From NCBI GenBank assembly GCA_013140455.1, contig JABFSU010000086.1:1-41567 (forward strand): a DNA stretch of 41,567 bases, read 5' to 3'. The notes under the pieces were generated by a model. The model searched no databases. It was not told the origin of the DNA and saw only the letters and a list, made by a program, of their open reading frames with translations. Positions within the stretch are counted from its first letter, which is position 1; each line of letters opens with the position of its first letter. Positions 27,214-41,567 of the stretch are shown in pieces. The position numbers and the translations under genes are program-made. Source of the stretch: Nitrospira sp. GTDB taxonomy: Bacteria; Nitrospirota; Nitrospiria; Nitrospirales; Nitrospiraceae.

Positions 27214-29622
27214 TCACGGCGAAGCGATACCCTCCCCGACGGGCCCCCCTTCAGGAATCTGATCCAGCTTATAGAAATCGGTCGGTCCAAGACGGCGCGC
27301 AGCCGATTGCGTCGGTTCGCTTCCTTTGGCAAACAGCTCGACGGAGCCTTTTTCTCCATCCCCTTCTTGTTCTGACTCCAGCAGCCCGGTCGTGGGGTCG
27401 ACCTTCACATAGGTGATGCCTTCCGGAATTTCGAATGGAACAACCGGCAGCTGAAGCAGCGCGTCCTTCATGAACTGAATCCAAATCGGCAATGCCGAAC
27501 GGGCGCCGGTCTCGCTCTCTCCCAAGGGACGGCGATCGTCAAATCCGACATACACGCCGGTCACCAGGTTCGGAGCCCCACCGATAAACCAGGCATTGAT
27601 GTACTCATTCGTCGTGCCGGTCTTCCCGGCGACCGGCCGGTCGATCACCTTCGCCGCCTGCCCGGTCCCTTTCTGAATCACGTCTTCCATCATGTTGGTG
27701 ATGAGGTATGCCGTCTCTTTCGCGATGATTTCGTGCGGCTGATCCTCCATGGCTTCAAGTGTCTTGCCGGTACTGTCCTTGGCCACCTTGATCGCAAAGG
27801 GCTCGGCTCTCGTCCCTTTGTTCAGAAACACGCCGTAGACCGAGGTCAGTTCCAACAGCCCGATAGAAGACGATCCCAACCCCAGGGATAAATCCGCGGG
27901 GAGCGGACTCGTGACGCCGACGGTTCGCGCAAACTCGATGACATTCTTGATCCCCACTTTGTCCAGCAATCGCACGGTGGCCAGATTGTGCGAATGCGCC
28001 AGCGCATCGCGCAACGTCACCATCCCGTGGAATTTCCTTCCGTAGTTCTCCGGCTTCCAGATCTTGTCGTCGGCTTCCTGCTCGTACACCACCGGCGCAT
28101 CGAGAATCTGCGTCGCAGGACTCATCCCCTGCGCCATCGCCGTCGCATAGATGACGGGCTTAAACGCAGAACCCGGCTGCCGATGAGCCTGCACCGCTCG
28201 GTTATATTCACTGCGTGAAAAATCGTAGCCGCCGACCATCGCACGAATCGCCCCCGTCCGGGGATCCACCGCGACCAACCCGCCTTCGACAATCGGCGTC
28301 TGCTCCAAGGTCAATTGCATCCCGTCCTTAGCAAGCTTCTTGACGCTGACCTCAATCACATCGCCCGGCTTCAAGGTCTTCTTGACATCAGGCATCAGCA
28401 CCGCATCCTGCGTCGGATCGGTCCCTTTCAATACGCGTTTGACCCAGGCCATGTCATCGAACAGGAGTTTCGCCGTCTGATCCCCGAGTTGGACCACATA
28501 GTGATCCTTGGCCTGCTTCAGCACGATGCCTTCAAGAAAATCTCCGGCCTTGATCGGTTGATCCGAGAGCGGAGCCCCGGGGATTTGCACCGTCGCAAGA
28601 TCGACTGTCTTCTTAGGCCCACGCCACCCCTGGCGTTTGTCGAGATCCCGCACACCCGCAAGAAACGCACGCTCTGCAGCTCGCTGCATTTCGAGGTTCA
28701 GCGTGGTGAAGATCTGCAACCCGCCCTTGTACACCATGGATTCGCCGTACTTTGCGACCAGTTGCTGCCGCACATGCTCCACAAAATACGGCGCAATGTG
28801 CTCACTCCCAGGCCGGCGGAACTTCAACTCCTCTGCAATCGCGGCATCGCGCTCAGCGACGGGAATGAACCCCGCCTCTTCCATACGCGCGAGCACATGC
28901 TCCTGACGCTTTTTGGCCCGCTCGTAGTTCGTGAACGGGGAGAACCGGCTCGGCGACTTCGGCAGTCCTCCGAGAAACGCAGACTCGGCGAGCGTGAGCT
29001 TTTCGATCTCTTTCCCGAAATACGATTGGGCCGCAGACGCCACGCCGTAGGACCCCTGACCGAAATAGATCTGGTTCAAATAGGTTTCAAGAATCTGCTC
29101 TTTCGTGGATACCGCTTCCATCTTATAGGCCAGAATCAACTCCCGCAGCTTCCGATCATACGATCGCTCCGCGGACAAGAAGAGTGACCGCGCCAGTTGC
29201 TGCGTAATCGTGCTCGCCCCTTCCACCTTCTTCCCGCCGTGACGAAGATTGGTCCAGGCCGCTCGCAGAATACCGATATAGTCCAGCCCCGGATGTTCGA
29301 AGAACCGCACGTCTTCCGTCGCAATCACGGCTTGCGTCAATGTCTTCGGAATACGGTCCAGAGGAGTCAGCGTCCGCCGCTCGATAAAGAACTGGCCGAT
29401 CGGCTGCCGATCGTCGGCATACACCGTCGTGACCAAACTCGGTTGATAGCCCTGCAAGAGATCCAAGGGGGGAAGATCCTGCGCCAAATGCCAGATCACG
29501 CCGGCCGCAGCCGTAACACCCACAATGCCGAGAGCACACAGCGTCAACAGGGTGATCTGCCACCAACGCCAGGGACGACGCGAAGACTGCTGTGTTTCAA
29601 CGAACCGGTCGTCACCAGGCAT
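27214..29622 (-). CDS. mrcA: Class A penicillin-binding protein 1A
   Basis: An 802-residue bifunctional peptidoglycan synthase anchored in the inner membrane by one helix at about residues 22-44. The glycosyltransferase (GT51) domain has the catalytic E103 in [12 protein letters not shown] and the [11 protein letters not shown] motif (135-145). A beta-rich OB-like insert at about 355-440 separates it from the transpeptidase, as in PBP1A. The transpeptidase nucleophile is S485 in PGSAFKP, with SHN at 544-546 and KTGTT at 667-671. It polymerises and crosslinks glycan strands. It stands alone between the isc operon and the kinase gene. Confidence 0.96.
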
Positions 29623-29913
29623 TCAGGCACGCTCCAAAGGGAAAAAGAATCCGGCAGGGTCGCCTCGTCACCTTACAATGCATCCCCCCAAAACTCAAGC
29701 AGACCAGTCAATCAGACCCGGCACACCATAGGCCTTCCTCCCGGAATGCGTGGAGCAGAGTCACGCGGGCCACTCCACTCATCAACCACTCAAGATTGCA
29801 CAGGAATTTACCGAGAAGATAGCCGGAGATGTGGCACTGTTCTGCGCTCCGGCGATCCATCCTTGGTTAAGGGTTATCGCCTAATTAATTTAACCCTTTC
29901 ATTTCGTGACCGG

Positions 29914-32900
29914 ATGCCACCGAGCGTGATGAAGCCTTTCCTGCAGCCGCAAGATGAATACCGACGCCACGACGCCCTGCTGCGCTATGGCATCCTGGAC
30001 TCCGAAGCCGAACAGGCTTTCGATGACCTGTGCCAGCTTGCGACACAGATCTGCGGAGCACCCATGGCCTACATCGGCTTCATGGATCGAACGCGCCTCT
30101 GGTTCAAAGTCCGCATCGGAATCCCCCACACCGAACTACCGCGAGATCGCTCTCTCTGCGCCCATACCATCTTACAATCGCACCCTATCGTGCTTCCCAA
30201 TGCCTTGGCCGATCTTCGATTTGCGGATCATCCCATGGTCACGGGAGAGCCGTTCATTCGTTTCTATGCAGGGATTCCACTACTCACTGCCAACGGCGAT
30301 GCGATCGGCACCCTCTGCGTGCTCGACCGTCATCCCCGCCATGTCAGCCAGAAGCAGGAGCAGGCACTTACAGCCTTAGCCCGGCAAGTCATGAGCCAGT
30401 TGGACCTCCGTCAACGCACGAAGCAGCTCGCCCAGAGCGCGCAAGCCCAACGGCAAACCGAAGCGATGCATGAGCGACTGCTCCTGGCATTGGGACACAG
30501 CACCGAGGGCGTCGCTCTCCTGACCAAGGAAGGCCGCTATACGTTCGTCAACGACGCCTTTGCCGCCATGCATGGTTTTCGTCCCATCGATCTCATCGGG
30601 CGGTCCTGGACGACGTTGTATCCGCCCGAATGGGTCACCAAACTCGAAGACATATTTTTCCCTCTCCTGCGCCAGCACGGCATCTGGCGGGGAGACCTGA
30701 TCGGCCGCACCAAATCCGGCGAATCCATCTGGGTCGAAACCTCCTTGAAGACGCTTCCGGAACGGCACCATGAAGAACAGTGGCTGATCTGGACCTGCAG
30801 CAACATCACAGGACAAAAACAGGCGCTGGAGGAAATCGCCGATACCCGGGCGCGCCTGCAAACAGTCCTCGATTCCGCCACAGAAATCGGCATCATCGCC
30901 ACCAATCCGCAGGGCATCATTACGCTCTTTAACTTTGGCGCCGAGCGTTTGCTGGGCTACCAGGCCGATGAAGTGATCGGACAGCGCACCCTCGACTCTT
31001 TCCATCTCCCGTCTGAAATAGCCGTTCGCGGGCAGCAGCTGTCTGAACGATTCGGGCGCCCGCTGGCCGGTGCCGATGTCCTGGTTGAAGCCGCACGCAT
31101 GGGAGGATACGAAGAGCGGGAATGGACCTACCTTCGCAAAGACGGCGACTGCATCACCGTCAACCTGGTCGTCACGGCCGTACGCGGGTCCAACGGTACA
31201 CTGACGGGATTCCTTGGTATTGCGAAAGATGTCACCGCCTTGAAACAGGCGACACTCCAGACCGAGGCTCAGCAGGCGCTGTTATCCGCGATCTCTGAAG
31301 TGCAAGAAGCCTTTATCGAGGAATCCAGCACCCAGAACGTATTCGCAGGCCTGCTCAATCGGTTTTGCACGCTCACCCGCAGCGCAGGGGGTATGATCGG
31401 AGAGCTTCTGCCTCGGCAAGGTCTCCCGCCGACGGCGCATCTTCTCGCGTCGACGTCGTCCCTACAGCCGAACCCGCAGGGACCCGCCGAGCTGGAACGC
31501 GCCAGCGTCATACAAGACCCTCGCCTTAAATGCCACATCGATCAGGTCCTCGCGAAAGGCGAGCCACTGCTCGTCAACGAAACCGCACACCCTCTGAATC
31601 CTACCAGCCCAACGGTGAGCGACCACACGCGCCACACCTTTCTCGGCCTTCCGCTGCTTCAAGGAAACCGTGTGATCGGTTTTATCGGTCTGGCCGGTCG
31701 ACCGGATGGATATCCGCCGCCCTTGATCGAGTATTTAGACCCGTTGGTCCAGACCTGCGCCAACATCCTCCAGTCGTACCGAAACACGCTCCAGCGAAAA
31801 GAAGCAGAAGGCGCGTTACGCATCGCGGCGCAGAATCTGGAAGCGCAAAACCATGAACTCCAGCGGGCTCGCGATCAGGCCTTGGCGGCGACACAGGCCA
31901 AAAGCGCCTTCCTCGCCACGATGAGTCACGAAATCCGCACGCCTATGAATGCCATCATCGGCATGGCCGATCTGTTATTGGAAACCACGCTCACCGACGA
32001 GCAAAAGAATTTTGTGAATCGGTTCAGTCGGGCGGCAAACTCCTTGCTGGGACTGATCAACGACATTTTGGATTTGTCCAAGATCGAATCCGGCCATATG
32101 AAACTGGAGGAGATTCCCTTCGACCTTCGGGAACTCGTCGAAACCAGCGGCGAACTCATGGCCGTGCGGGCGCACGCCAAGAGCCTTGAGCTTATCATCC
32201 ACGTGGCACCTGATGCCCCTCAGTTCGTGATGGGAGATCCCACACGTCTGAGGCAGATCCTGATCAATCTCCTCGGCAATGCCATTAAATTCACCGAGCG
32301 GGGAGACATCATTCTGCGGGTGCAGCAACACGCCGCGCCCCCAGAAAGCCTGCTGCATTTCAGCGTGACGGACAGCGGCATCGGCATTCCCGAAGACAAG
32401 CTGAATACGATCTTCGAAAACTTCACACAAGTTGATTCTTCCACGACAAGAAAATACGGCGGCACCGGGCTCGGCCTGAGCATCTGCCGACACCTCGCCG
32501 AACTGATGGGCGGACACGTCTGGGCTGAAAGCACGCTCGGAGCAGGCTGCACCATGCATGTCACCGTACGTCTGCCGCAGACCGCCTCCGAGCCTCCTGC
32601 CAGCGATGAGACCGGCCCGCGCCTGACCGGCACACGCATGCTGATCGTCGATGACCATGAAACCAATCGCCTGGTCTGCCACGACATCCTCGCTCGGACA
32701 GGCGCCAGTATTGTCGAAACCGGTGACGGTCCGGCCGCGTTGGCTGCGATGCAGAAGGCCCACACCGACGGCCTACCATTTCATCTTGTCATCCTCGATT
32801 GTCGCATGCCGGAGATGGACGGTTTCTCCGTCGCCGAGGCGATGCGCGCATCCCCGGAATTATCCAAAACGCCAACCATCATGCTGACATCTGATGTGAG

Positions 32901-33492
32901 CAGCGGAAACGCAATGAACGCTCACACCTTGGGCATTCGCCAGCATCTCAGCAAACCCATTCGAAGCATGGCGCTGCTCAACGTCGTCCACAATATCTTG
33001 ACCGAAATACCACGGATCCTCCTCGACCAGACTCCGGCACCAGCTCCGCTCGCAGTATCCTCCGAAGTACCGCCCCCCTCGGCCCGAACGTTTGCGACAG
33101 GCCGGATCCTCCTCGCCGAGGATCTGGAGGACAACCGCGACGTCGTCGCGCTCTTTCTGAAGTCCACGGCCTACGAACTCGACATGGCAGAAAACGGGGC
33201 GATCGCATTAGAGAAATTCAAAACGAGCCTCTACGATCTCGTATTCATGGACATGCAAATGCCCATCATGGACGGGTATGTCGCCACTCATCGGATTCGG
33301 GAATGGGAGAAGGAACACCGGCGCACGCCGACCCCGATCCTGGCGCTCACGGCCAACGCATTTCCCGAAGAACTCGAGAAAAGTCTCGCGGCCGGCTGTA
33401 CCGCGCATCTCACGAAACCGATTAAGAAAAAGACGCTGCTGGAGGCTATCGGCCACTATGCCCGACATTCCGATCACCAGGAGGCTGCTTGA
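29914..33492 (+). CDS. Hybrid sensor histidine kinase, GAF-PAS-PAS-GAF-HK-REC-REC
   Basis: A 1192-residue soluble kinase with no membrane segment. Order: GAF (about 20-165), PAS (185-300), PAS (310-445), GAF (450-625), coiled coil, dimerisation/phosphoacceptor domain with H682 in [10 protein letters not shown], ATPase domain (about 770-890) with N789-type LLGNAIKF and GTGLGLSI boxes, then two receiver domains with D962 ([10 protein letters not shown]) and D1113 ([10 protein letters not shown]). The start at 29914 is chosen because the GAF domain begins within 20 residues; the frame is open far upstream, but that part overlaps the divergent PBP gene. The next gene encodes an Hpt protein whose ATG overlaps the stop codon by one base, so a His-Asp-His-Asp relay is likely. 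The 291-bp upstream region has no other gene. Confidence 0.93.
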
Positions 33493-33827
33493 TGCACACC
33501 ACCCCCCCGCTCCATCCGGCATCGACAGACGACGCGATGATTGTCCGCGTGGAAGCGGATTTTGAAGACCTGCTGCCGAAATTTATGACCAATCGCAAGA
33601 AAGAGGTCGTGACCATGCGGGAGGCGCTGACGCAACAGGATTTTGAGACCATCCGCAAGATTGCTCATGGCATGAAAGGAGCCGGCGGCAGCTATGGCTT
33701 CGATCGTATCACCGCAATGGCCGCCACAATTGAACAAGCCGCGAAGGCAGGATCAGCGGCTTCGATTGCTGCAGAGCTTGCGCTGCTCGCAACATATCTG
33801 GAGCAGGTCCAGGTGGTGTTCGACTAG
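33492..33827 (+). CDS. Hpt-domain phosphotransfer protein
   Basis: A 111-residue histidine phosphotransfer protein. The phosphorylatable residue is H59 in IAHGMKGAGGSYGF, followed by the usual glycine-rich turn and helix. It would take the phosphoryl group from a receiver domain of the upstream hybrid kinase and pass it to a response regulator, probably the one encoded 30 bp downstream. The start overlaps the kinase stop (TGATG). It lacks any output domain. Confidence 0.93.
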   Translation: MHTTPPLHPASTDDAMIVRVEADFEDLLPKFMTNRKKEVVTMREALTQQDFETIRKIAHGMKGAGGSYGFDRITAMAATIEQAAKAGSAASIAAELALLATYLEQVQVVFD

Positions 33828-33857: not shown

Positions 33858-34256
33858 ATGACAGAAACAACACCTTCAGGCAAACCTACATTGCTGATGG
33901 CGGAAGACGAGGAAGATACCGCCAGCTTGATCAGATTTCTCCTGGAGCGCGCCGGGTACCACGTCGTCCATGCACCCGACGGCCAGCAGGCGCAGCAGTT
34001 GATCGACACCATGGCGCCGCCGAGCCTGGTCTTGCTCGACATCATGTTGCCGCACATGAGCGGCCTGCAGTTACTGCCGTATATTCGGAAGAAGACTGAA
34101 TGGCAGCGGGTTCCCATCATCATGCTTACCGCAGATTCAAGCGAACATGACATTCAACAGGCCCTGGCCGCAGGCGCCAATGACTACATGGTGAAACCCT
34201 TCAACCCGCGGGAACTCACCGCACGGCTGAGCCGCTTCCTCAAAGTCGCGGCCTAG
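33858..34256 (+). CDS. Single-domain response regulator (CheY-like)
   Basis: A 132-residue receiver domain with no output domain. Phospho-acceptor D61 (VLLDIMLPHMSG), the acidic pocket EDEED (16-20), T91 (MLTAD) and K113 (MVKPF) are all present. AAAGGGG lies 5 nt before the ATG. It is the likely end of a phosphorelay from the hybrid kinase through the Hpt protein. As it cannot bind DNA, it must act on a partner protein; the HEAT-repeat membrane protein encoded 13 bp downstream is a good candidate. Confidence 0.94.
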   Translation: MTETTPSGKPTLLMAEDEEDTASLIRFLLERAGYHVVHAPDGQQAQQLIDTMAPPSLVLLDIMLPHMSGLQLLPYIRKKTEWQRVPIIMLTADSSEHDIQQALAAGANDYMVKPFNPRELTARLSRFLKVAA

Positions 34257-34269
34257 TCGGGGATGGCGG

Positions 34270-35379
34270 GTGACAGGCGTGACTGACACTACTCTCTCCC
34301 TGTCGATTGTCGACGTTGGATGGCTGACCACCTTCACCATTCATGGTCTGATTCTGTTCCTCCTCGGATGGACTCTCGTCATCCGCCGGCTCCGTGTCTC
34401 GACCGACCGACGGCGGCGGCGGATGGTGACCGTCTGGCGTCCGATCCTAGCCCAGAGCTTGATCGAAGCGCCTGAAACCCTTCCACCGATCCACCCGCGC
34501 GACCGGGTGCTATTTCTCTACTTATGGAATCATCTGCAGGAGTCCATCAAAGGAGAATCATCAGACGAGCTGTGCGCGGTGATACGGCGGACTGGCATGG
34601 ATCACGTCGTGCACCACTACTTGGCCAAAGGGACGTTGCGGCAGCAACTACTGGCGATCGTCACGCTCGGCCACTTGAAAGATCCCTCAGCTTGGCTGCG
34701 CCTCGTCGAACTGGCGCATGACACGAATGCGTTTCGCTCCCTAGAGGCCGCCCGCGCCCTGGTGCGCATCGATGCCCCGCGGGCCATTCCTGTGTTGGTC
34801 CCCTTGATGTCCCAACGCGTCGATTGGTCTCCGCTCAAAGTGCTGGCCATCCTACAGGGCGCAGGGGATGAACTCGTCGCCCGTGCCCTCGGGGAAGCCG
34901 CGGTCAAGGCGCCGCCGCTCATTGCCGCTCGCTTACTCCGCTTCCTCGCCTCGATCAGGATTCATCGCGCGTTGCCGCTGATTCGTCCCCTGCTGGCCCG
35001 GCGCCCTCTGCATGAAGACGTGCTGGCCGGGTGCCTGTCACTGTTTGGGCAATGCTCCGACCCGCAGGACCTCTCCACTGTGCGACAGTACCTCACCCAC
35101 CCGACTTGGTTCATTCGAGTCCAAGCTGCGACTGCCCTCGGAAAGATGGGAGTCGAGGAAGATGAGGGTCACTTGATCGGATTATTGGGCGACTCACACT
35201 GGTGGGTACGCTACAGAGCTGCGGAGGCCCTCTCCATTCTGCCGTCAATGACAGAAGATAAACTATCGATCCTTGTGCAAACACTGCCGACGACGGAATC
35301 GCGGAAGGTGCTCACACCCTTTGTCGCCAAGCGGTTTGAAGAATCCCTGGCTCACACGTCCGGTCTGTCCGCGGCCTGA
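34270..35379 (+). CDS. Membrane-anchored HEAT-repeat protein
   Basis: A 369-residue protein with one predicted N-terminal membrane helix (about residues 17-38), a basic stretch RRLRVSTDRRRRRM after it, and then alpha-helical HEAT-like repeats from about 105 to the end (for example LEAARALVRIDAPRAIPVLV and VQAATALGKMGVEEDEGHLI). The basic segment suggests the repeats face the cytoplasm. HEAT arrays bind other proteins. It starts at a GTG 13 bp after the response regulator, in the same plus-strand series, and lies convergent with the deacetylase of the polysaccharide locus. A scaffold or receiver partner role is inferred. Confidence 0.85.
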   Translation: MTGVTDTTLSLSIVDVGWLTTFTIHGLILFLLGWTLVIRRLRVSTDRRRRRMVTVWRPILAQSLIEAPETLPPIHPRDRVLFLYLWNHLQESIKGESSDELCAVIRRTGMDHVVHHYLAKGTLRQQLLAIVTLGHLKDPSAWLRLVELAHDTNAFRSLEAARALVRIDAPRAIPVLVPLMSQRVDWSPLKVLAILQGAGDELVARALGEAAVKAPPLIAARLLRFLASIRIHRALPLIRPLLARRPLHEDVLAGCLSLFGQCSDPQDLSTVRQYLTHPTWFIRVQAATALGKMGVEEDEGHLIGLLGDSHWWVRYRAAEALSILPSMTEDKLSILVQTLPTTESRKVLTPFVAKRFEESLAHTSGLSAA

Positions 35380-35392
35380 TCGCGCGGTCGCT

Positions 35393-37291
35393 TTACCGGG
35401 AGCCGGTGGCAAACGTGAGCACGTGAACCCCCTTCAGCTCAGGAAGCGTCACGAAGGTCCCGCGTTGTTCAATTCCTTTCATAGACGAGCGTGATGGATC
35501 GAATCGCCAACCGCCGGGCACTTCAAGCGTCAAGCCAGCCACAGACTCCGGAGTCGTGATCGTGACAGTCCCGCCCCGCACGCCTTGCGCGACATCCAGC
35601 TGCACCTGGTTGCGTGCCGCCCACCAGCGGCCGAATTCTCCTACTGAGCCGAACCAGGCATAGGACCGCACACCTTCGACAAACCCTTTCTCAAACGCAA
35701 GCTTATGATCGAGGATGTTGGGATGGATGAGGACGACCATTACACCACCGTACCGACTGATCTGGCGCGCGACCTCCAGGGCTTCCGGCAGCCGGTCGCC
35801 CATCTTCGGCAGCTCTTCGTCTTCAATCGTGACGGGAAACTCGAACAGCTCGACTTCACTGTCCGTCAATCGGTCGTAGTTCAGTTGATACGGCAGATGG
35901 GTGAGCGAATTGTTCGCGGTGGCTGTTGAGCTGTACTGATACCCGGTGGCCAGCAAGGCCTGCGGAAGGCTGAACGGATTGGAGAGTTCGCCCGGCCTGA
36001 ACGACACGATGGACTGGCCTGAAAAATGATCGATCAAGAATTTGCTGACCCGTAATTCGCCGAGGATGCTCGCGTTCAATGCCGTCGTGCGATCCTTCAC
36101 GAACGGCGCGTAGGCGGGATAGGCCTCGCGCCCCGTCCCCATCGGAAACCGGTTGAAAACCTTCGAATGGGCAATCGTGTGGCTCCCCAGCTCCATGCCG
36201 AGCGCCGCAAGACGCGTGAGATACCCCACCCCCTCCTCGTTAAAGAAAATATCATCGTTGTAGTCGCGAATATATTTCACTTGAATGAAGTAGGTGCCAA
36301 CCACCCCCTGGCTTTGTTCATACTCCGCATAGTCCACCGCATTTTTGATGGACTGCGTAAAATCCACATCGTGCGTGAGCATGACCGACAGCGACTTGCC
36401 AAACGGGACCGTTCCCAGCGTCACCGCACCGGCCTGGGCGGTGCGATAGATCGACTTCAGCAGCCGCAGCCAAACATCGAGGGTCGGATCAAACTGATTG
36501 TCGTAGGTCTGAACGAGTTCCTCTCCACGATTGTTGTACCCTTTGAGCAGCAGGAATCCGAGATCGAGCCCGATCGCATAAGCCCGGCCTTGACCATAGA
36601 TCTTCTGCGTGATAGCCGCCGTGCCGTCATCGAATCGGGCGAGCGGGGCAACACTCTCGGTATAGCCATAGGTCCCCATCACCTCGATGCCCTTGTCTCG
36701 AATCCCGACACGCACGTGTCGCTCACGCGGATCGGTCAACTCCGCCAGCAGCGGATCGGACTCCGCCAGGTGCAGGTCATAGCGCTGCCGCGAAACCTCC
36801 GCAGCCCGAAAACCGAACACATCATTCAACCCGCCGCCCAATACCTGCACCCCGATCAATGTCCCGCCGGATTCGGGAAACTCGGCCAGCGCCTGAAGCG
36901 CTTCGGAGCTGAGCAGCTTCCCCGAGATCATCGGATAGACCAACACCACCTGATGCGTCAGCGCTTCACGAACATCGCGCGTGATACGAAAGGGAACACC
37001 GATGGATTTGAGCCCATGCGCCAATCCCAGCCAGGAGGAATCCGGATCGGTCAATAAGATCGCGAGGTGGCTCTTCGATCCTTCTCCATAGGCCGTCCAC
37101 GCCGTCGGCACCCGCGGAGGCACGACGGTGGCATGATCGGGGCCCGACAGGCCGGGGAACCGATGGATGTCTTGATCGGGGATCCCAACGTGCTGGACAA
37201 GCCTCGAACCAAACAATATCCAGGATCCAAGCACGATCGAGAGAAAGAGGGTGGCAATTCCGGTCAAACGGATGAGCGTTGATCGTTCCAT
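35393..37291 (-). CDS. Polysaccharide deacetylase with N-terminal alpha/beta domain
   Basis: A 632-residue protein with one N-terminal membrane helix or signal anchor (about 7-28). Residues about 70-290 form an alpha/beta domain resembling amidotransferase-like or PelA-like Rossmann regions. The NodB-type deacetylase domain (about 300-550) has THDVD (306-310, base D308 and metal D310), the metal histidines in HTIAH (371-375), FRPGE (431-435) and IHPN (522-525). A small beta domain (about 560-632) ends the protein. It would remove acetyl groups from a periplasmic polymer during export. Its stop lies 13 bp from the end of the convergent HEAT gene. It is third in a minus-strand operon. Confidence 0.9.
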   Translation of the reverse strand: MERSTLIRLTGIATLFLSIVLGSWILFGSRLVQHVGIPDQDIHRFPGLSGPDHATVVPPRVPTAWTAYGEGSKSHLAILLTDPDSSWLGLAHGLKSIGVPFRITRDVREALTHQVVLVYPMISGKLLSSEALQALAEFPESGGTLIGVQVLGGGLNDVFGFRAAEVSRQRYDLHLAESDPLLAELTDPRERHVRVGIRDKGIEVMGTYGYTESVAPLARFDDGTAAITQKIYGQGRAYAIGLDLGFLLLKGYNNRGEELVQTYDNQFDPTLDVWLRLLKSIYRTAQAGAVTLGTVPFGKSLSVMLTHDVDFTQSIKNAVDYAEYEQSQGVVGTYFIQVKYIRDYNDDIFFNEEGVGYLTRLAALGMELGSHTIAHSKVFNRFPMGTGREAYPAYAPFVKDRTTALNASILGELRVSKFLIDHFSGQSIVSFRPGELSNPFSLPQALLATGYQYSSTATANNSLTHLPYQLNYDRLTDSEVELFEFPVTIEDEELPKMGDRLPEALEVARQISRYGGVMVVLIHPNILDHKLAFEKGFVEGVRSYAWFGSVGEFGRWWAARNQVQLDVAQGVRGGTVTITTPESVAGLTLEVPGGWRFDPSRSSMKGIEQRGTFVTLPELKGVHVLTFATGSR

Positions 37292-37294
37292 ACC

Positions 37295-39142
37295 CTACCA
37301 GTGATACAGCAAACTCAGGTTGCCACCACGACGGACGTAGAGAAATCCGCGGTCTTCGTAATAGCCCGATGCCTCAGCCGAGAATCGATCATTCACGGGA
37401 AACGTCACACCCCCCTGGAGCGTCCGGCTCTGCACCCGGGTAAAATCCTGCGCAGCCACGATCCGTTCACCCGACGTTCCGAACGACCCCGACGCAAAGA
37501 CCTGCACCCGCTCCGTCGGCCGCCAGGTCAATTGTGAGGAGAGTGTGACCGCCCCGGTAGTAGGAATCAGATACACCTTCTCGGTCAGCCACAGATTGAA
37601 CGGCAGGAAGATGGTCAATCCCGGCATCAGCAGATCAATATCGTCCTGCTTATAGTTCAGACGGCGATACCCCAACGACACCTCGAACGGAGCCAGGGCG
37701 GCATGCACGCCCCCCAGCCCTTGGGCCATCTCGCCGACGAACGAGTAGTTGGGGGCGAAGTGCGGATTGACGGTTCCTTGTGCCGCAACATAGCCCCAGG
37801 CCCGCTTCCAGAGGGGGCTGTACAGTTCGGCCGACAGCGGCGTGTCGTGGGATCCGAACCGATTGATCGGTTCAGCCCGCACCACCAATGTCTGATCGCC
37901 GATCGGCTTAGCCACTTCGAACAAGAGATCCCGTTCATCGGGTATCCCCTTGGTATAGGAATAGTGGCCGTAGCCGAGCTTGGCGTAGTCCCGATAGGGC
38001 AGACGGAGCCCGGTCAACCCCTGCCCCACGGCCGCCCGCGGCGAGACCAGCAGTTCGGATTGCACGTTGTGCAACTGCTGTTCGATGTCCGGATCGTGCG
38101 TCTCGGCCACCAGCGCCTCGTAGCGCGCCAAGGCCTCTGACCGATTCCCCTGCCAATGCGCCAGCGCCGCAAGCCCGCGGCGCGCCTCTATGTGGCGCGG
38201 CTCCTCCCGAACCACCTGTTCATACAAGGCCTGCGCTTCGGGAAATTGTTTCTGCCACGAGAGCACTTGCGCCAGCGCCACACGAATGTCCTGATCCTTC
38301 GGATGGCGCGCCAACACCTCACGATACAACGAGGTCGCCTCGGAGTGGGCCCCCTGCCACGATAAGACGCGCGCCAATGCACTCCGCACCTCGTCGTTTT
38401 CTGGATACCGGCGCAGTCCTCCACGGTAGAGAGCGACCGCATCGACGTACTGCCGTGCCAACTCAAGTTGATGCCCACTTTCCGATATCTGCCTCGCATC
38501 GGCAGAGACAGACTCGGCCTCCCGGACAATAGTTGACTCAGGTGTCGGAGGTTGAACCGGCGGGGCGATTTTCGGCGATGACTCGGCCTTCAGCGAATGG
38601 AGGCGTGCAGCGAGTTCCGGATCGCCCGTGGCCTCCACGACGCGCTGATAGTAGGGGATCGCCTGATCCGGATGACCACTCCACAGCAGCACATCGGCGA
38701 GCCCGGTCAGCGCATCAGGATGCTGTAGGTGATCGAGCAACACCCGCTCATACTCTTGCGTGGCCTCATCATAGCGACGTTGCCACGAGAGAACCCGTCC
38801 AAGAGCGACGCGGCTTTCATTATCCAGGGGATGGCGGGATAGCACATCCCGATACAACGCACTCGCTTCGTCCCATTGCTGTTGCCAGGAGAGCAGCTTC
38901 GCCAATGTGGCACGGACTTCGTCATTCTCCGGGCGTGTCGCTAAGTATTGGCGATAGACCGCGATGGCTTCCGGAAACTGTTTCTGTTGCTCCAGAAACT
39001 TCCCCTGCTCCAGAAGACGGCGTGGAGATGCCTCGGCGGTAATCGCCTGCACAGATATGACAAGCCCATCAACTCCGGCAGTCACAAGGAGTGCCGAGCA
39101 AGCAAAGCACACAATGCGTATGATCTGACCTGTCCGCAACAT
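37295..39142 (-). CDS. TPR protein with C-terminal outer-membrane beta-barrel
   Basis: A 615-residue exported protein. After a signal peptide (about 1-37) come two blocks of TPR repeats (about 40-175 and 225-370) with a recurrent LSWQ element, joined by a Pro/Glu-rich linker. The last 230 residues are alternating beta strands ending in a terminal aromatic (LSLLYHW), the signature of an outer-membrane barrel. This is the layout of YaiO-, PgaA- and BcsC-type export porins, whose periplasmic TPRs bind the polymer or the deacetylase. The start at 39142 is favoured; a GTG at 39157 is possible. It ends 3 bp before the deacetylase gene, so the two are co-transcribed. Confidence 0.88.
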   Translation of the reverse strand: MLRTGQIIRIVCFACSALLVTAGVDGLVISVQAITAEASPRRLLEQGKFLEQQKQFPEAIAVYRQYLATRPENDEVRATLAKLLSWQQQWDEASALYRDVLSRHPLDNESRVALGRVLSWQRRYDEATQEYERVLLDHLQHPDALTGLADVLLWSGHPDQAIPYYQRVVEATGDPELAARLHSLKAESSPKIAPPVQPPTPESTIVREAESVSADARQISESGHQLELARQYVDAVALYRGGLRRYPENDEVRSALARVLSWQGAHSEATSLYREVLARHPKDQDIRVALAQVLSWQKQFPEAQALYEQVVREEPRHIEARRGLAALAHWQGNRSEALARYEALVAETHDPDIEQQLHNVQSELLVSPRAAVGQGLTGLRLPYRDYAKLGYGHYSYTKGIPDERDLLFEVAKPIGDQTLVVRAEPINRFGSHDTPLSAELYSPLWKRAWGYVAAQGTVNPHFAPNYSFVGEMAQGLGGVHAALAPFEVSLGYRRLNYKQDDIDLLMPGLTIFLPFNLWLTEKVYLIPTTGAVTLSSQLTWRPTERVQVFASGSFGTSGERIVAAQDFTRVQSRTLQGGVTFPVNDRFSAEASGYYEDRGFLYVRRGGNLSLLYHW

Positions 39143-39183
39143 GCAATCGCTCGTCACTGCTTTCTTGAGTCATCCTTGCCGCC

Positions 39184-40752
39184 TTACTCCGCAAGGGCTC
39201 GAAATCCATCAAGGTCGTGAATGATCACTCCTGAAAAACTGTGATGCGAGGTCATCTCCGCAATCCGCTTCACCGAGGCAGACACCTCAGCTCGTGAACG
39301 GCCGGCAAAGGTGAGCCGCTCCGGCCTGACTGTGAAACGGTGATGAATACGGAACCACTCCCGCCGGGTCGAGAGGCTCAATCCTCCTACCGGCGGCATC
39401 CACTGCAGCAGACGCCGATCATAGTCCAGCATCGCGTCAGCCCGGGCAGGGTCCAACTCACGACGCAGCACCACATGCTGCTCAACCGGCAGCGGAGTCG
39501 TCTCTACCGCCAGCCACACCCGCGTCCCGGCGAGATCGCCATAGCGCAGGATGTCTTCGGCAATGTCCTGCACTTCGTCCAGGTCAGTGCGATAACTCAT
39601 CACCGCCACTTCGTCGACCCGATCCATCACGGCATAGGCCAACGGCCGGCCGGCAAGGGTCTGCGACGCCAGCCAAAAGGGAATCACCATCGAGAGGCGA
39701 ACCCGTCCACCGATGACTTCCTTCAGCGTATCAATCGTCTCGACATAGCGACGGAGTTGAGCTTCGTCCTGCAAAAATCCCGGCAAGAGATAGGGCTCAA
39801 TATCAAGCTGAACCCCGGACATCCCACCAGGTTTCACCAGGGCCAGGAGCCTCTGTATCTTATCGGCGAGTCTGTGGGGTTCCTGAATCGCTTCGGGATA
39901 TCCGTCCAGTGCAAATGCCGTAACGCCAGCCTCCTGCAGCGTCATCAGCAACCTGGCATAGCTACGCCACATCTCGTCGTCGTCCGTCTGGGACGGCATT
40001 TGAATGAGCACTCTGGAACAGCTCTGGACCCGACAGGTGGCCAGCAGGGCGTCCGGGGCACGGATCGCCTCATGATACTTCCACACCCAGAATCCGATCC
40101 CGGCAGGCCCTGCGGGCACGAATGACGGCTGCGCGGCTTCAATCTGTTCAAACTCAATGTGCGCGCTGGCCGCCTCCGTCGACACCACCAGCGCCATCAG
40201 CGACCGAAGATCCAGCTTCCGACCGATCTCCTTGAGCGAGAGCGTGAGATCGAATGGGCCCGTCACCGTGACAAGCGGAAGATTGTCTTCTCGTTGTCCT
40301 GCAGCCCGATCTTCCAATGCCACAACGACCCGGCCCGACGCGCGGCCACGAATCCGCAGCGTCTCGTAGGACAAGAGGTCCACGGCAATTTCTGCCTGGT
40401 GCAGAGGAATGCGCTGACCGCACCGCATCCCGTTTCCGGAAGCCCGCTGTAGATCGATACCCTCCTGCGTCCGAGTCTGCTGTCTTTGGCAGGAGCCGAA
40501 CACACGGGCTTCGCCGAACATGCCGAGAAGGTCAAGAATAGGTACAAACGGTCGATAAGGAAGAGAGGGCACGGCAGCAGGCGGACCACTGAGCGTCACG
40601 GCAGGAGTGGTGCGTTCACCGACATACGACAACTCGATCTCAAAAACAGCGGGTGGGATGGGAATGGAGAGAGGCACCGAAATATCTTCTGAGTGTCCGA
40701 GTGCCGGCAGGGCCACGACCGATACGGCCGCGAAGACCCAGTTCCACCGCAT
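39184..40752 (-). CDS. Exported glycosidase-like TIM-barrel protein
   Basis: A 522-residue protein with a signal peptide (cleavage likely after ALG, residue 19). An N-terminal beta-rich domain (about 35-190) may bind carbohydrate. The C-terminal part (about 215-520) reads like a glycoside-hydrolase TIM barrel, with ALDGYP (281-286), GVQLDIEPYLLP (313-324, DIE at 317-319, as in family 18 enzymes), VMSYRTD (384-390) and a C-terminal IIHDLDGFR. In PNAG systems such a barrel is the second half of PgaB. The start at 40752 is chosen because it gives a clean signal peptide; the frame is open to 40827, which would overlap the divergent gene. First gene of the minus-strand operon. Confidence 0.75.
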   Translation of the reverse strand: MRWNWVFAAVSVVALPALGHSEDISVPLSIPIPPAVFEIELSYVGERTTPAVTLSGPPAAVPSLPYRPFVPILDLLGMFGEARVFGSCQRQQTRTQEGIDLQRASGNGMRCGQRIPLHQAEIAVDLLSYETLRIRGRASGRVVVALEDRAAGQREDNLPLVTVTGPFDLTLSLKEIGRKLDLRSLMALVVSTEAASAHIEFEQIEAAQPSFVPAGPAGIGFWVWKYHEAIRAPDALLATCRVQSCSRVLIQMPSQTDDDEMWRSYARLLMTLQEAGVTAFALDGYPEAIQEPHRLADKIQRLLALVKPGGMSGVQLDIEPYLLPGFLQDEAQLRRYVETIDTLKEVIGGRVRLSMVIPFWLASQTLAGRPLAYAVMDRVDEVAVMSYRTDLDEVQDIAEDILRYGDLAGTRVWLAVETTPLPVEQHVVLRRELDPARADAMLDYDRRLLQWMPPVGGLSLSTRREWFRIHHRFTVRPERLTFAGRSRAEVSASVKRIAEMTSHHSFSGVIIHDLDGFRALAE

Positions 40753-40807
40753 GGCAGAGGAACCACTCCATCGGCAGACTCGACGGCGGATGGAGACACG
40801 CTGACCG

Positions 40808-41567
40808 ATGTGGGTAGATACGCTCATCTCGATTTCCGAATGGCTGTTCCTGCTCTACCTTCTCGGCCTGACCGCAGGATACTTGATGCTGGATGTCGTC
40901 GCCGCGATTCATCTGCGGCGTTACATGGAAGAGCGCTCGCTCAACAGCCTCCCGCATGGCTACACCGGATTCGAGCCGCAGATCACGCTGCTCGTTCCCG
41001 CCTTCAATGAGGAAGCCACCATCGCGACCACGGTCAAATCCCTCCTCCAGCTGAGCTATTCGGAATTTGAAATTGTGGTCATCAACGACGGGTCGAAGGA
41101 CAAGACGTTGGACGTCCTGATCAAGGAATTCGGCCTGATTCCGTTTCCCGAAGCCTATGACGCCCGGCTGGCTACGAAACCGATCCGAACGATCTACCAT
41201 GCCCCGGCACAACCCAATCTACGAGTCGTCGATAAAGACAACGGCGGCAAAGCGGACTCGCTCAACGCAGGAATCAACATTTCGCGGTATCCGTTATTTT
41301 GCTGTATCGATGCCGATTCCATCCTCCAACGTGACAGCCTTCGGCTGGCCGCGCAGCCCTTTCTGGACGACCCCCACACCATCGCCTGCGGCGGCACCGT
41401 TCGTGTCGCCAACGGCTGCGAAGTGAAGAACGGCTTCTTAACGAAGGTGGGACTCCCGACCAATATGCTCGCGCTGTTTCAAATCGTCGAATACCTGCGC
41501 GCCTTCCTGTTCGGCCGGCTCGGCTGGTCTCCGATCAATGCGCTGCTCATCATTTCCGGCGCCTTCG
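40808..41567 (+). CDS. Family-2 glycosyltransferase, N-terminal part (cut by window end)
   Basis: An open frame of 253 codons runs off the right edge. A membrane helix (about residues 12-33) precedes a GT-A domain with LLVPAFNEEATIATTV (about 60-75), VVINDGSKDKT (90s), a KDNGGKADSLNAG segment (about 142-154) and the DAD metal motif in CCIDADSI. This is the layout of processive synthases such as PgaC and other poly-N-acetylglucosamine or hyaluronan-type enzymes; the QxxRW motif and later helices lie beyond the window. It is divergent from the glycosidase-like gene, with 55 bp between start codons, and is likely the synthase of the locus. Confidence 0.9.
   Translation, partial: MWVDTLISISEWLFLLYLLGLTAGYLMLDVVAAIHLRRYMEERSLNSLPHGYTGFEPQITLLVPAFNEEATIATTVKSLLQLSYSEFEIVVINDGSKDKTLDVLIKEFGLIPFPEAYDARLATKPIRTIYHAPAQPNLRVVDKDNGGKADSLNAGINISRYPLFCCIDADSILQRDSLRLAAQPFLDDPHTIACGGTVRVANGCEVKNGFLTKVGLPTNMLALFQIVEYLRAFLFGRLGWSPINALLIISGAF

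Follow-up and report, generated by a model that had tools for sequence, protein, structure and literature searches.

Gene content and conservation of the locus

The stretch of DNA analyzed here (the window) is the whole of contig C73 (41,567 bp), part of a draft Nitrospira genome of 3.79 Mb. The genes gathered at the right end of the window make up what we take, with a probability of roughly 70%, to be a distinct synthase-dependent exopolysaccharide system. The minus strand holds genes for a deacetylase-like protein (632 aa), a tetratricopeptide repeat (TPR) protein (620 aa) and an exported barrel protein (547 aa). A family 2 glycosyltransferase (GT2) gene diverges rightward from the last of these and is cut by the end of the contig, and genes for a hybrid histidine kinase, an Hpt protein, a single-domain response regulator (RR) and a HEAT-repeat protein converge on the deacetylase gene from the plus strand (Table 1). 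The joint presence of deacetylase, TPR/barrel, exported barrel and GT2 at positions 34270-41567 had been proposed by an earlier examination of the letters alone (the sequence-only reading), and all four are found there. The HEAT gene, which lies inside the same interval, had gone unnamed, and the neighboring kinase, Hpt and RR genes had likewise been overlooked.

Close relatives in a public genome collection are Nitrospira metagenome-assembled genomes, and at least 20 Nitrospira-type genomes retain the locus. Synteny in other Nitrospirota had been put forward as a check on this gene set, and gene order is maintained across many Nitrospira-type contigs, at protein identities of ~40-97%; hence, the set is not a chance assembly.

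Table 1. Genes of the putative exopolysaccharide locus and of the adjoining phosphorelay (window coordinates).
Feature	Position	Strand	Basis
Hybrid sensor histidine kinase, GAF-PAS-PAS-HisKA-HATPase-REC-REC (start of reading frame uncertain)	29197..33492	+	Pfam; conserved 5' of Hpt/RR/HEAT in Nitrospira relatives
Hpt phosphotransfer protein	33489..33827	+	Pfam Hpt E 3e-13
Single-domain RR without output domain	33858..34256	+	Response_reg E 6e-29, residues 13-124 of 132
HEAT-repeat protein with a single N-terminal transmembrane segment; putative partner of the synthase	34270..35379	+	HEAT_2 E 3.1e-19
Membrane-anchored deacetylase-like protein: GATase-like, CE4-like, C-terminal extension	35393..37291	-	Polysacc_deac_1 and Glyco_hydro_42M in relatives; alignment
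Exported TPR protein, C-terminal YaiO-family outer-membrane beta-barrel	37295..39157	-	TPR_19 E 3e-40; TIGR04390 85 bits
Exported beta-sandwich (~55-232) + TIM-barrel glycosidase-like domain (243-547)	39184..40827	-	AlphaFold2 model, fold search, PDB 10yv profile
GT2 synthase, N-terminal 253 residues, cut by contig end	40808..41567	+	Glycos_transf_2 E 1e-23

A putative processive synthase and its proposed HEAT-repeat partner

The GT2 gene of the window stops before the QxxRW motif on which the sequence-only reading had made its proposal depend, and the remainder of the synthase was recovered from orthologues and from a second contig of the same genome. This contig (C28) ends inside the GT gene (61965-62098) and carries its last 43 codons, followed by typA/bipA; since it bears the other end of the broken gene, C73 and C28 must adjoin, and together they lack just the central part of the gene. 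The complete orthologue of a relative (G022, L033:9849-11255) is 468 aa long, 96% identical over the shared part, and contains the motifs DGS, DAD, GED and QRIRW. QxxRW is present in all complete orthologues, which thus display the motif set of processive membrane GT2 enzymes (D, DxD, [TG]ED, QxxRW), and on this point the proposal withstands its own refuting condition. The GT profile picks up membrane-bound hyaluronan and cellulose synthases as well. No PgaD- or PilZ-like gene lies 3' of the GT, where typA/bipA comes next in every case inspected (L033, L034, L035, L048, L049 and C28).

In the HEAT protein, a transmembrane segment (residues ~13-38) is followed by RRLRVSTDRRRRR, and because this single N-terminal segment precedes an Arg-rich stretch, the repeats presumably face the cytoplasm. 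HEAT_2 matches occur at about a dozen places in the 3.8-Mb genome, from which we estimate a chance HEAT-GT adjacency of the order of 1% per locus. Outside the Nitrospirota, where protein searches covered plasmid records, the GT protein retrieved 14 records from 12 genera (E <= 1e-45). HEAT was not the search key, although Mesorhizobium had surfaced earlier through HEAT, and Devosia and Paenibacillus through the exported barrel protein. A HEAT gene sits directly upstream of the GT in all 12 genera (Mesorhizobium, Erythrobacter, Devosia, Legionella, Deinococcus, Emticicia, Bacteroides, Paenibacillus, Planococcus, Halosolutus, Salinirubellus and Haloarcula), the match in Emticicia being weak (E 2e-5), and is thus a constant neighbor of the synthase across Alphaproteobacteria, Legionella, Deinococcus, Bacteroidota, Bacillota and haloarchaea. 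A single-domain RR is found nearby in seven of these genera (Mesorhizobium, Erythrobacter, Devosia, Emticicia, Halosolutus, Salinirubellus and Haloarcula). Among the seven genera with an outer membrane, four have a YaiO barrel near the pair (Mesorhizobium, Legionella, Emticicia, Bacteroides) and the other three a TPR protein alone (Erythrobacter, Deinococcus, Devosia); no TPR or YaiO protein was seen near the pair in the plasmids of archaea or Bacillota. Nucleotide searches of plasmids gave no matches, and neither did protein searches of plasmids with the deacetylase.

The HEAT-linked GTs group in one clade (support 96/95), which is supported rather than proved because the outgroup is small and has long branches. 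With their own hidden Markov model (HMM) they score 582-717 bits, as against 137 for Escherichia coli PgaC and 66 for YaiP, a gap that is somewhat flattered because the model was built from the same sequences. In Paenibacillus cellulosilyticus (L099, 7698-16789), a Bacillota version of the locus lines up the TIM-barrel gene, two genes for large exported proteins that Pfam does not clearly place, HEAT and GT.

Putative export and modification proteins

The C-terminus of the TPR protein matches the YaiO barrel family over its full length (TIGR04390, positions 4-230 of 230) at 85 bits, well above the cut-off of 32. It is the only YaiO barrel in its genome, and among 14 control genomes the family turned up in E. 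coli only.

The exported barrel protein has no credible Pfam or NCBIfam family. An initial AlphaFold2 run on the single sequence was poor (pLDDT 44.6) and was replaced by one on a 20-row alignment, which yields a beta-sandwich followed by a TIM barrel (pLDDT 82.9, pTM 0.78). In a fold search with the TIM barrel (PDB, VIA), glycosidase barrels were matched at Z 16-19, with Cwp19 first and the PgaB C-terminal domain third (Z 17.3), but the rows are mostly ties and no single glycosidase family stands out; the PelA hydrolase is not among the matches listed, which proves nothing. The only solved relative by sequence is PDB 10yv, a putative glycoside hydrolase of Cellulomonas fimi (E 1.5e-12), with which the domain shares an LDxEP motif; the match spans 159 residues of a 275-residue chain, and the family name given in that entry is tentative. 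Retaining glycosidases of clan GH-A keep glutamates after strands 4 and 7, and the TIM protein has invariant glutamates at these two places (E344 and E442, respectively). We predict a glycosidase-like activity for it. From its annotated start, this gene shares 20 bases with the divergent GT gene, and the later ATG at 40752 is the likelier true start, as it provides a better signal peptide and removes the overlap; the residues conserved upstream of it (window 40752-40827) are antisense to GT coding sequence.

The deacetylase-like protein combines a GATase-like domain (~75-290), a domain resembling carbohydrate esterase family 4 (CE4, ~293-560) and a C-terminal extension. The supporting family matches are weak: Polysacc_deac_1 is matched in 13 of 13 relatives (best E 5.7e-5) and Glyco_hydro_42M, a GATase-like beta-galactosidase trimerization domain, in 12 of 13, and the window protein reaches 21.0 bits with the CE4 model PF01522 (gathering score 23.1). 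In an alignment of 13 rows, D308, D310, H371, H375 and R432 never vary, and H523 is conserved save for one broken relative that lacks that part. Read by motif, without structural alignment, MT1 is THDVD and MT3 is RPG. An extra alpha/beta domain of PelA type had been assigned to this protein from its sequence, and the GATase-like domain bears this out, since PelA and the fungal deacetylase Agd3 carry such a domain beside the deacetylase (PMC12022489, PMC7229062). Bacterial relatives of Agd3 have been reported in uncharacterized exopolysaccharide operons (PMC7229062).

Relation to known polysaccharide systems

As in the E. coli PgaABCD system, a processive GT2, a TPR-barrel exporter, a CE4-like deacetylase and a TIM-barrel glycosidase fold are encoded in one locus, and the foremost alternative is a divergent poly-N-acetylglucosamine (pga) system whose PgaB is now encoded by separate genes for deacetylase and glycosidase. 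The TPR-plus-barrel architecture recalls PgaA, the TIM barrel is like that of PgaB in fold, and PgaC/IcaA (TIGR03937) is the nearest NCBIfam model to the complete GT orthologue. The score, however, is 139 bits, a third of the cut-off (422), and the GT falls in a separate clade. The barrel is of the YaiO kind, whereas the match to PgaA (TIGR03939, PGA_TPR_OMP) reaches 65.8 of the required 366.65 bits, with its best stretch in the TPR part. No pgaD adjoins the GT: a HEAT protein stands where PgaD would be, phosphorelay genes adjoin it, and it is the HEAT partner that is constant and the deacetylase that is optional. The equation of deacetylase and barrel with the two halves of PgaB, as the sequence-only reading had it, did not survive as homology. 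Pfam and NCBIfam scans of the locus proteins returned no PgaB family, HMM and hhalign comparisons of both proteins with E. coli PgaB were negative, and the TIM barrel has no profile match to GH153, the family of the PgaB C-terminal domain, the likeness of fold being one among many glycosidases. A split PgaB is thus a functional analogy, and we regard a divergent pga system as improbable.

A Pel-like system with a split PelA, in which the barrel would be the hydrolase domain and the deacetylase protein would hold the alpha/beta, deacetylase and beta domains, appears more improbable still. The order of GATase-like, CE4-like and C-terminal domains does match that of PelA (CE21 + hydrolase), minus its hydrolase, and Agd3 (CE18 + CBM87), and a glycosidase partner is also at hand (PMC12022489, PMC7229062). 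On the other side, profile comparison with solved PelA or Agd3 gives no match, the barrel is a separate protein with no profile match detected, and no gene in the locus resembles pelD, pelE or pelG. The Pel synthase is PelF, a GT4 enzyme, whereas the synthase here is a GT2 by Pfam. The catalytic motifs also look more CE4-like. PelA-type CE21 enzymes have a histidine in MT1 (HxDxD) and lack the MT3 arginine (PMC12022489); by the motif reading, the protein here seems to have this arginine and to lack the PelA-type histidine at the expected position.

Profile scores also led us to reject the locus as a pga or bcs system and the GT as kin of YaiP; with the model for BcsA/CelA-type cellulose synthases (TIGR03030) the GT reaches 33 bits, for a cut-off of 699. 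The E. coli yaiO-yaiX-yaiP-yaiS cluster does place a YaiO barrel beside a GT2 and a deacetylase gene, but YaiP has no QxxRW, YaiS is short and of another kind, and the cluster contains no HEAT or TPR gene. No protein of the locus is assigned by profile to pga, pel or bcs, so that the distinctness claimed from the sequence stands for these three, alg having been covered by general family scans alone. A last alternative, that the product of GT and HEAT is a glycan or glycolipid of the cell surface (a capsule or glycosylated lipid) not secreted by the YaiO barrel, with barrel, deacetylase and TIM protein acting on other glycans, would account for pairs without outer-membrane genes in archaea and Bacillota, but the recurrent TPR/YaiO proteins in outer-membrane bacteria, a GT-TIM fusion and the QxxRW motif make it quite unlikely.

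Proposed mechanism and its weak points

Under the exopolysaccharide system that we favor, a processive GT2 in the inner membrane, belonging to a subfamily of its own, would polymerize a nucleotide sugar and extrude the chain. Its partner would be the HEAT-repeat membrane protein, with repeats that would lie in the cytoplasm. In the periplasm, a membrane-anchored CE4-like enzyme would take acetyl groups off the chain and the TIM-barrel glycosidase-like protein would bind or trim it, and the TPR protein with its YaiO-type barrel would carry it across the outer membrane. Because the RR lacks an output domain, the likely target of the linked kinase, Hpt and RR would be the synthase, reached by way of the HEAT protein, and not transcription. 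Our guess is that the polymer contains N-acetylhexosamine, as suggested by the deacetylase together with the sugar nucleotidyltransferase and glmS genes that follow the GT in Halosolutus. The sugar may nonetheless differ between hosts, because the Legionella pair has genes for a nucleotide-sugar dehydrogenase and epimerases as neighbors.

Several points weigh against this scheme. The GT copy in the window is truncated, and the exporter role of the YaiO barrel is proposed from family and context. The link between HEAT and RR is a genomic one, and no RR adjoins the pair in the deacetylase-less Nitrospira subtype described below, nor in Deinococcus, Legionella, Planococcus, Paenibacillus or Bacteroides. 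Moreover, an RR-GGDEF protein is encoded beside the HEAT-like gene of one relative (L043), so cyclic di-GMP (c-di-GMP) may act there.

More generally, the locus could exemplify a widespread class of bacterial and archaeal polysaccharide synthases with a HEAT membrane protein as obligate partner, signaled to by single-domain RRs instead of c-di-GMP/PilZ-type control, and with the YaiO barrel as outer-membrane exit, a broader proposal that we advance tentatively and hold to be rather less probable than its negation. We found no description of the HEAT-GT2-YaiO combination in the open-access papers searched, from which many journals are absent, and neither HEAT nor YaiO comes up in the main survey of synthase-dependent operons, published in 2020. 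If correct, an unnamed class of synthase-dependent exopolysaccharide would be present in Nitrospira nitrifiers of water-treatment biofilms, rhizobia, Bacteroides and haloarchaea, the YaiO barrel family would gain a likely function, and HEAT proteins a directly testable role as synthase partners.

Variants within the Nitrospirota

A second Nitrospira subtype (L039-L042, L044, L046) retains HEAT, TPR-barrel, TIM and GT genes with no deacetylase in the locus; four of these six genomes lack any relative of the deacetylase, and the remaining two carry one elsewhere. Since such loci keep the other four genes, the deacetylase is optional and GT, HEAT, barrel and TIM are the core in the Nitrospirota; a distant member (G291) also keeps these four together. 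Relatives of the TIM protein occur in 37 of 295 sampled Nitrospirota genomes, nearly all in the window's family.

Some arrangements depart further from this plan. In L043 (8266-11478, minus strand), GT and TIM protein share a single open frame of 1070 codons beside the HEAT-like gene. In L089 (8710-11094, minus strand), a 794-aa protein joins a TolC-like outer-membrane efflux (OEP) domain to a TIM domain, beside a different QxxRW GT2, and possibly represents a separate exporter-glycosidase fusion system. A lone TIM gene in G017 (L038:9747-11429, minus strand), at the syntenic place between the gene for an 805-aa protein and typA, is apparently a relic, GT, barrel and deacetylase being gone from that locus. 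Finally, a reading of the sequence places the deacetylase-less loci (L039-L046) close to genes resembling multicopper oxidases and to an anti-sigma-like gene that carries a CBM48-like domain.

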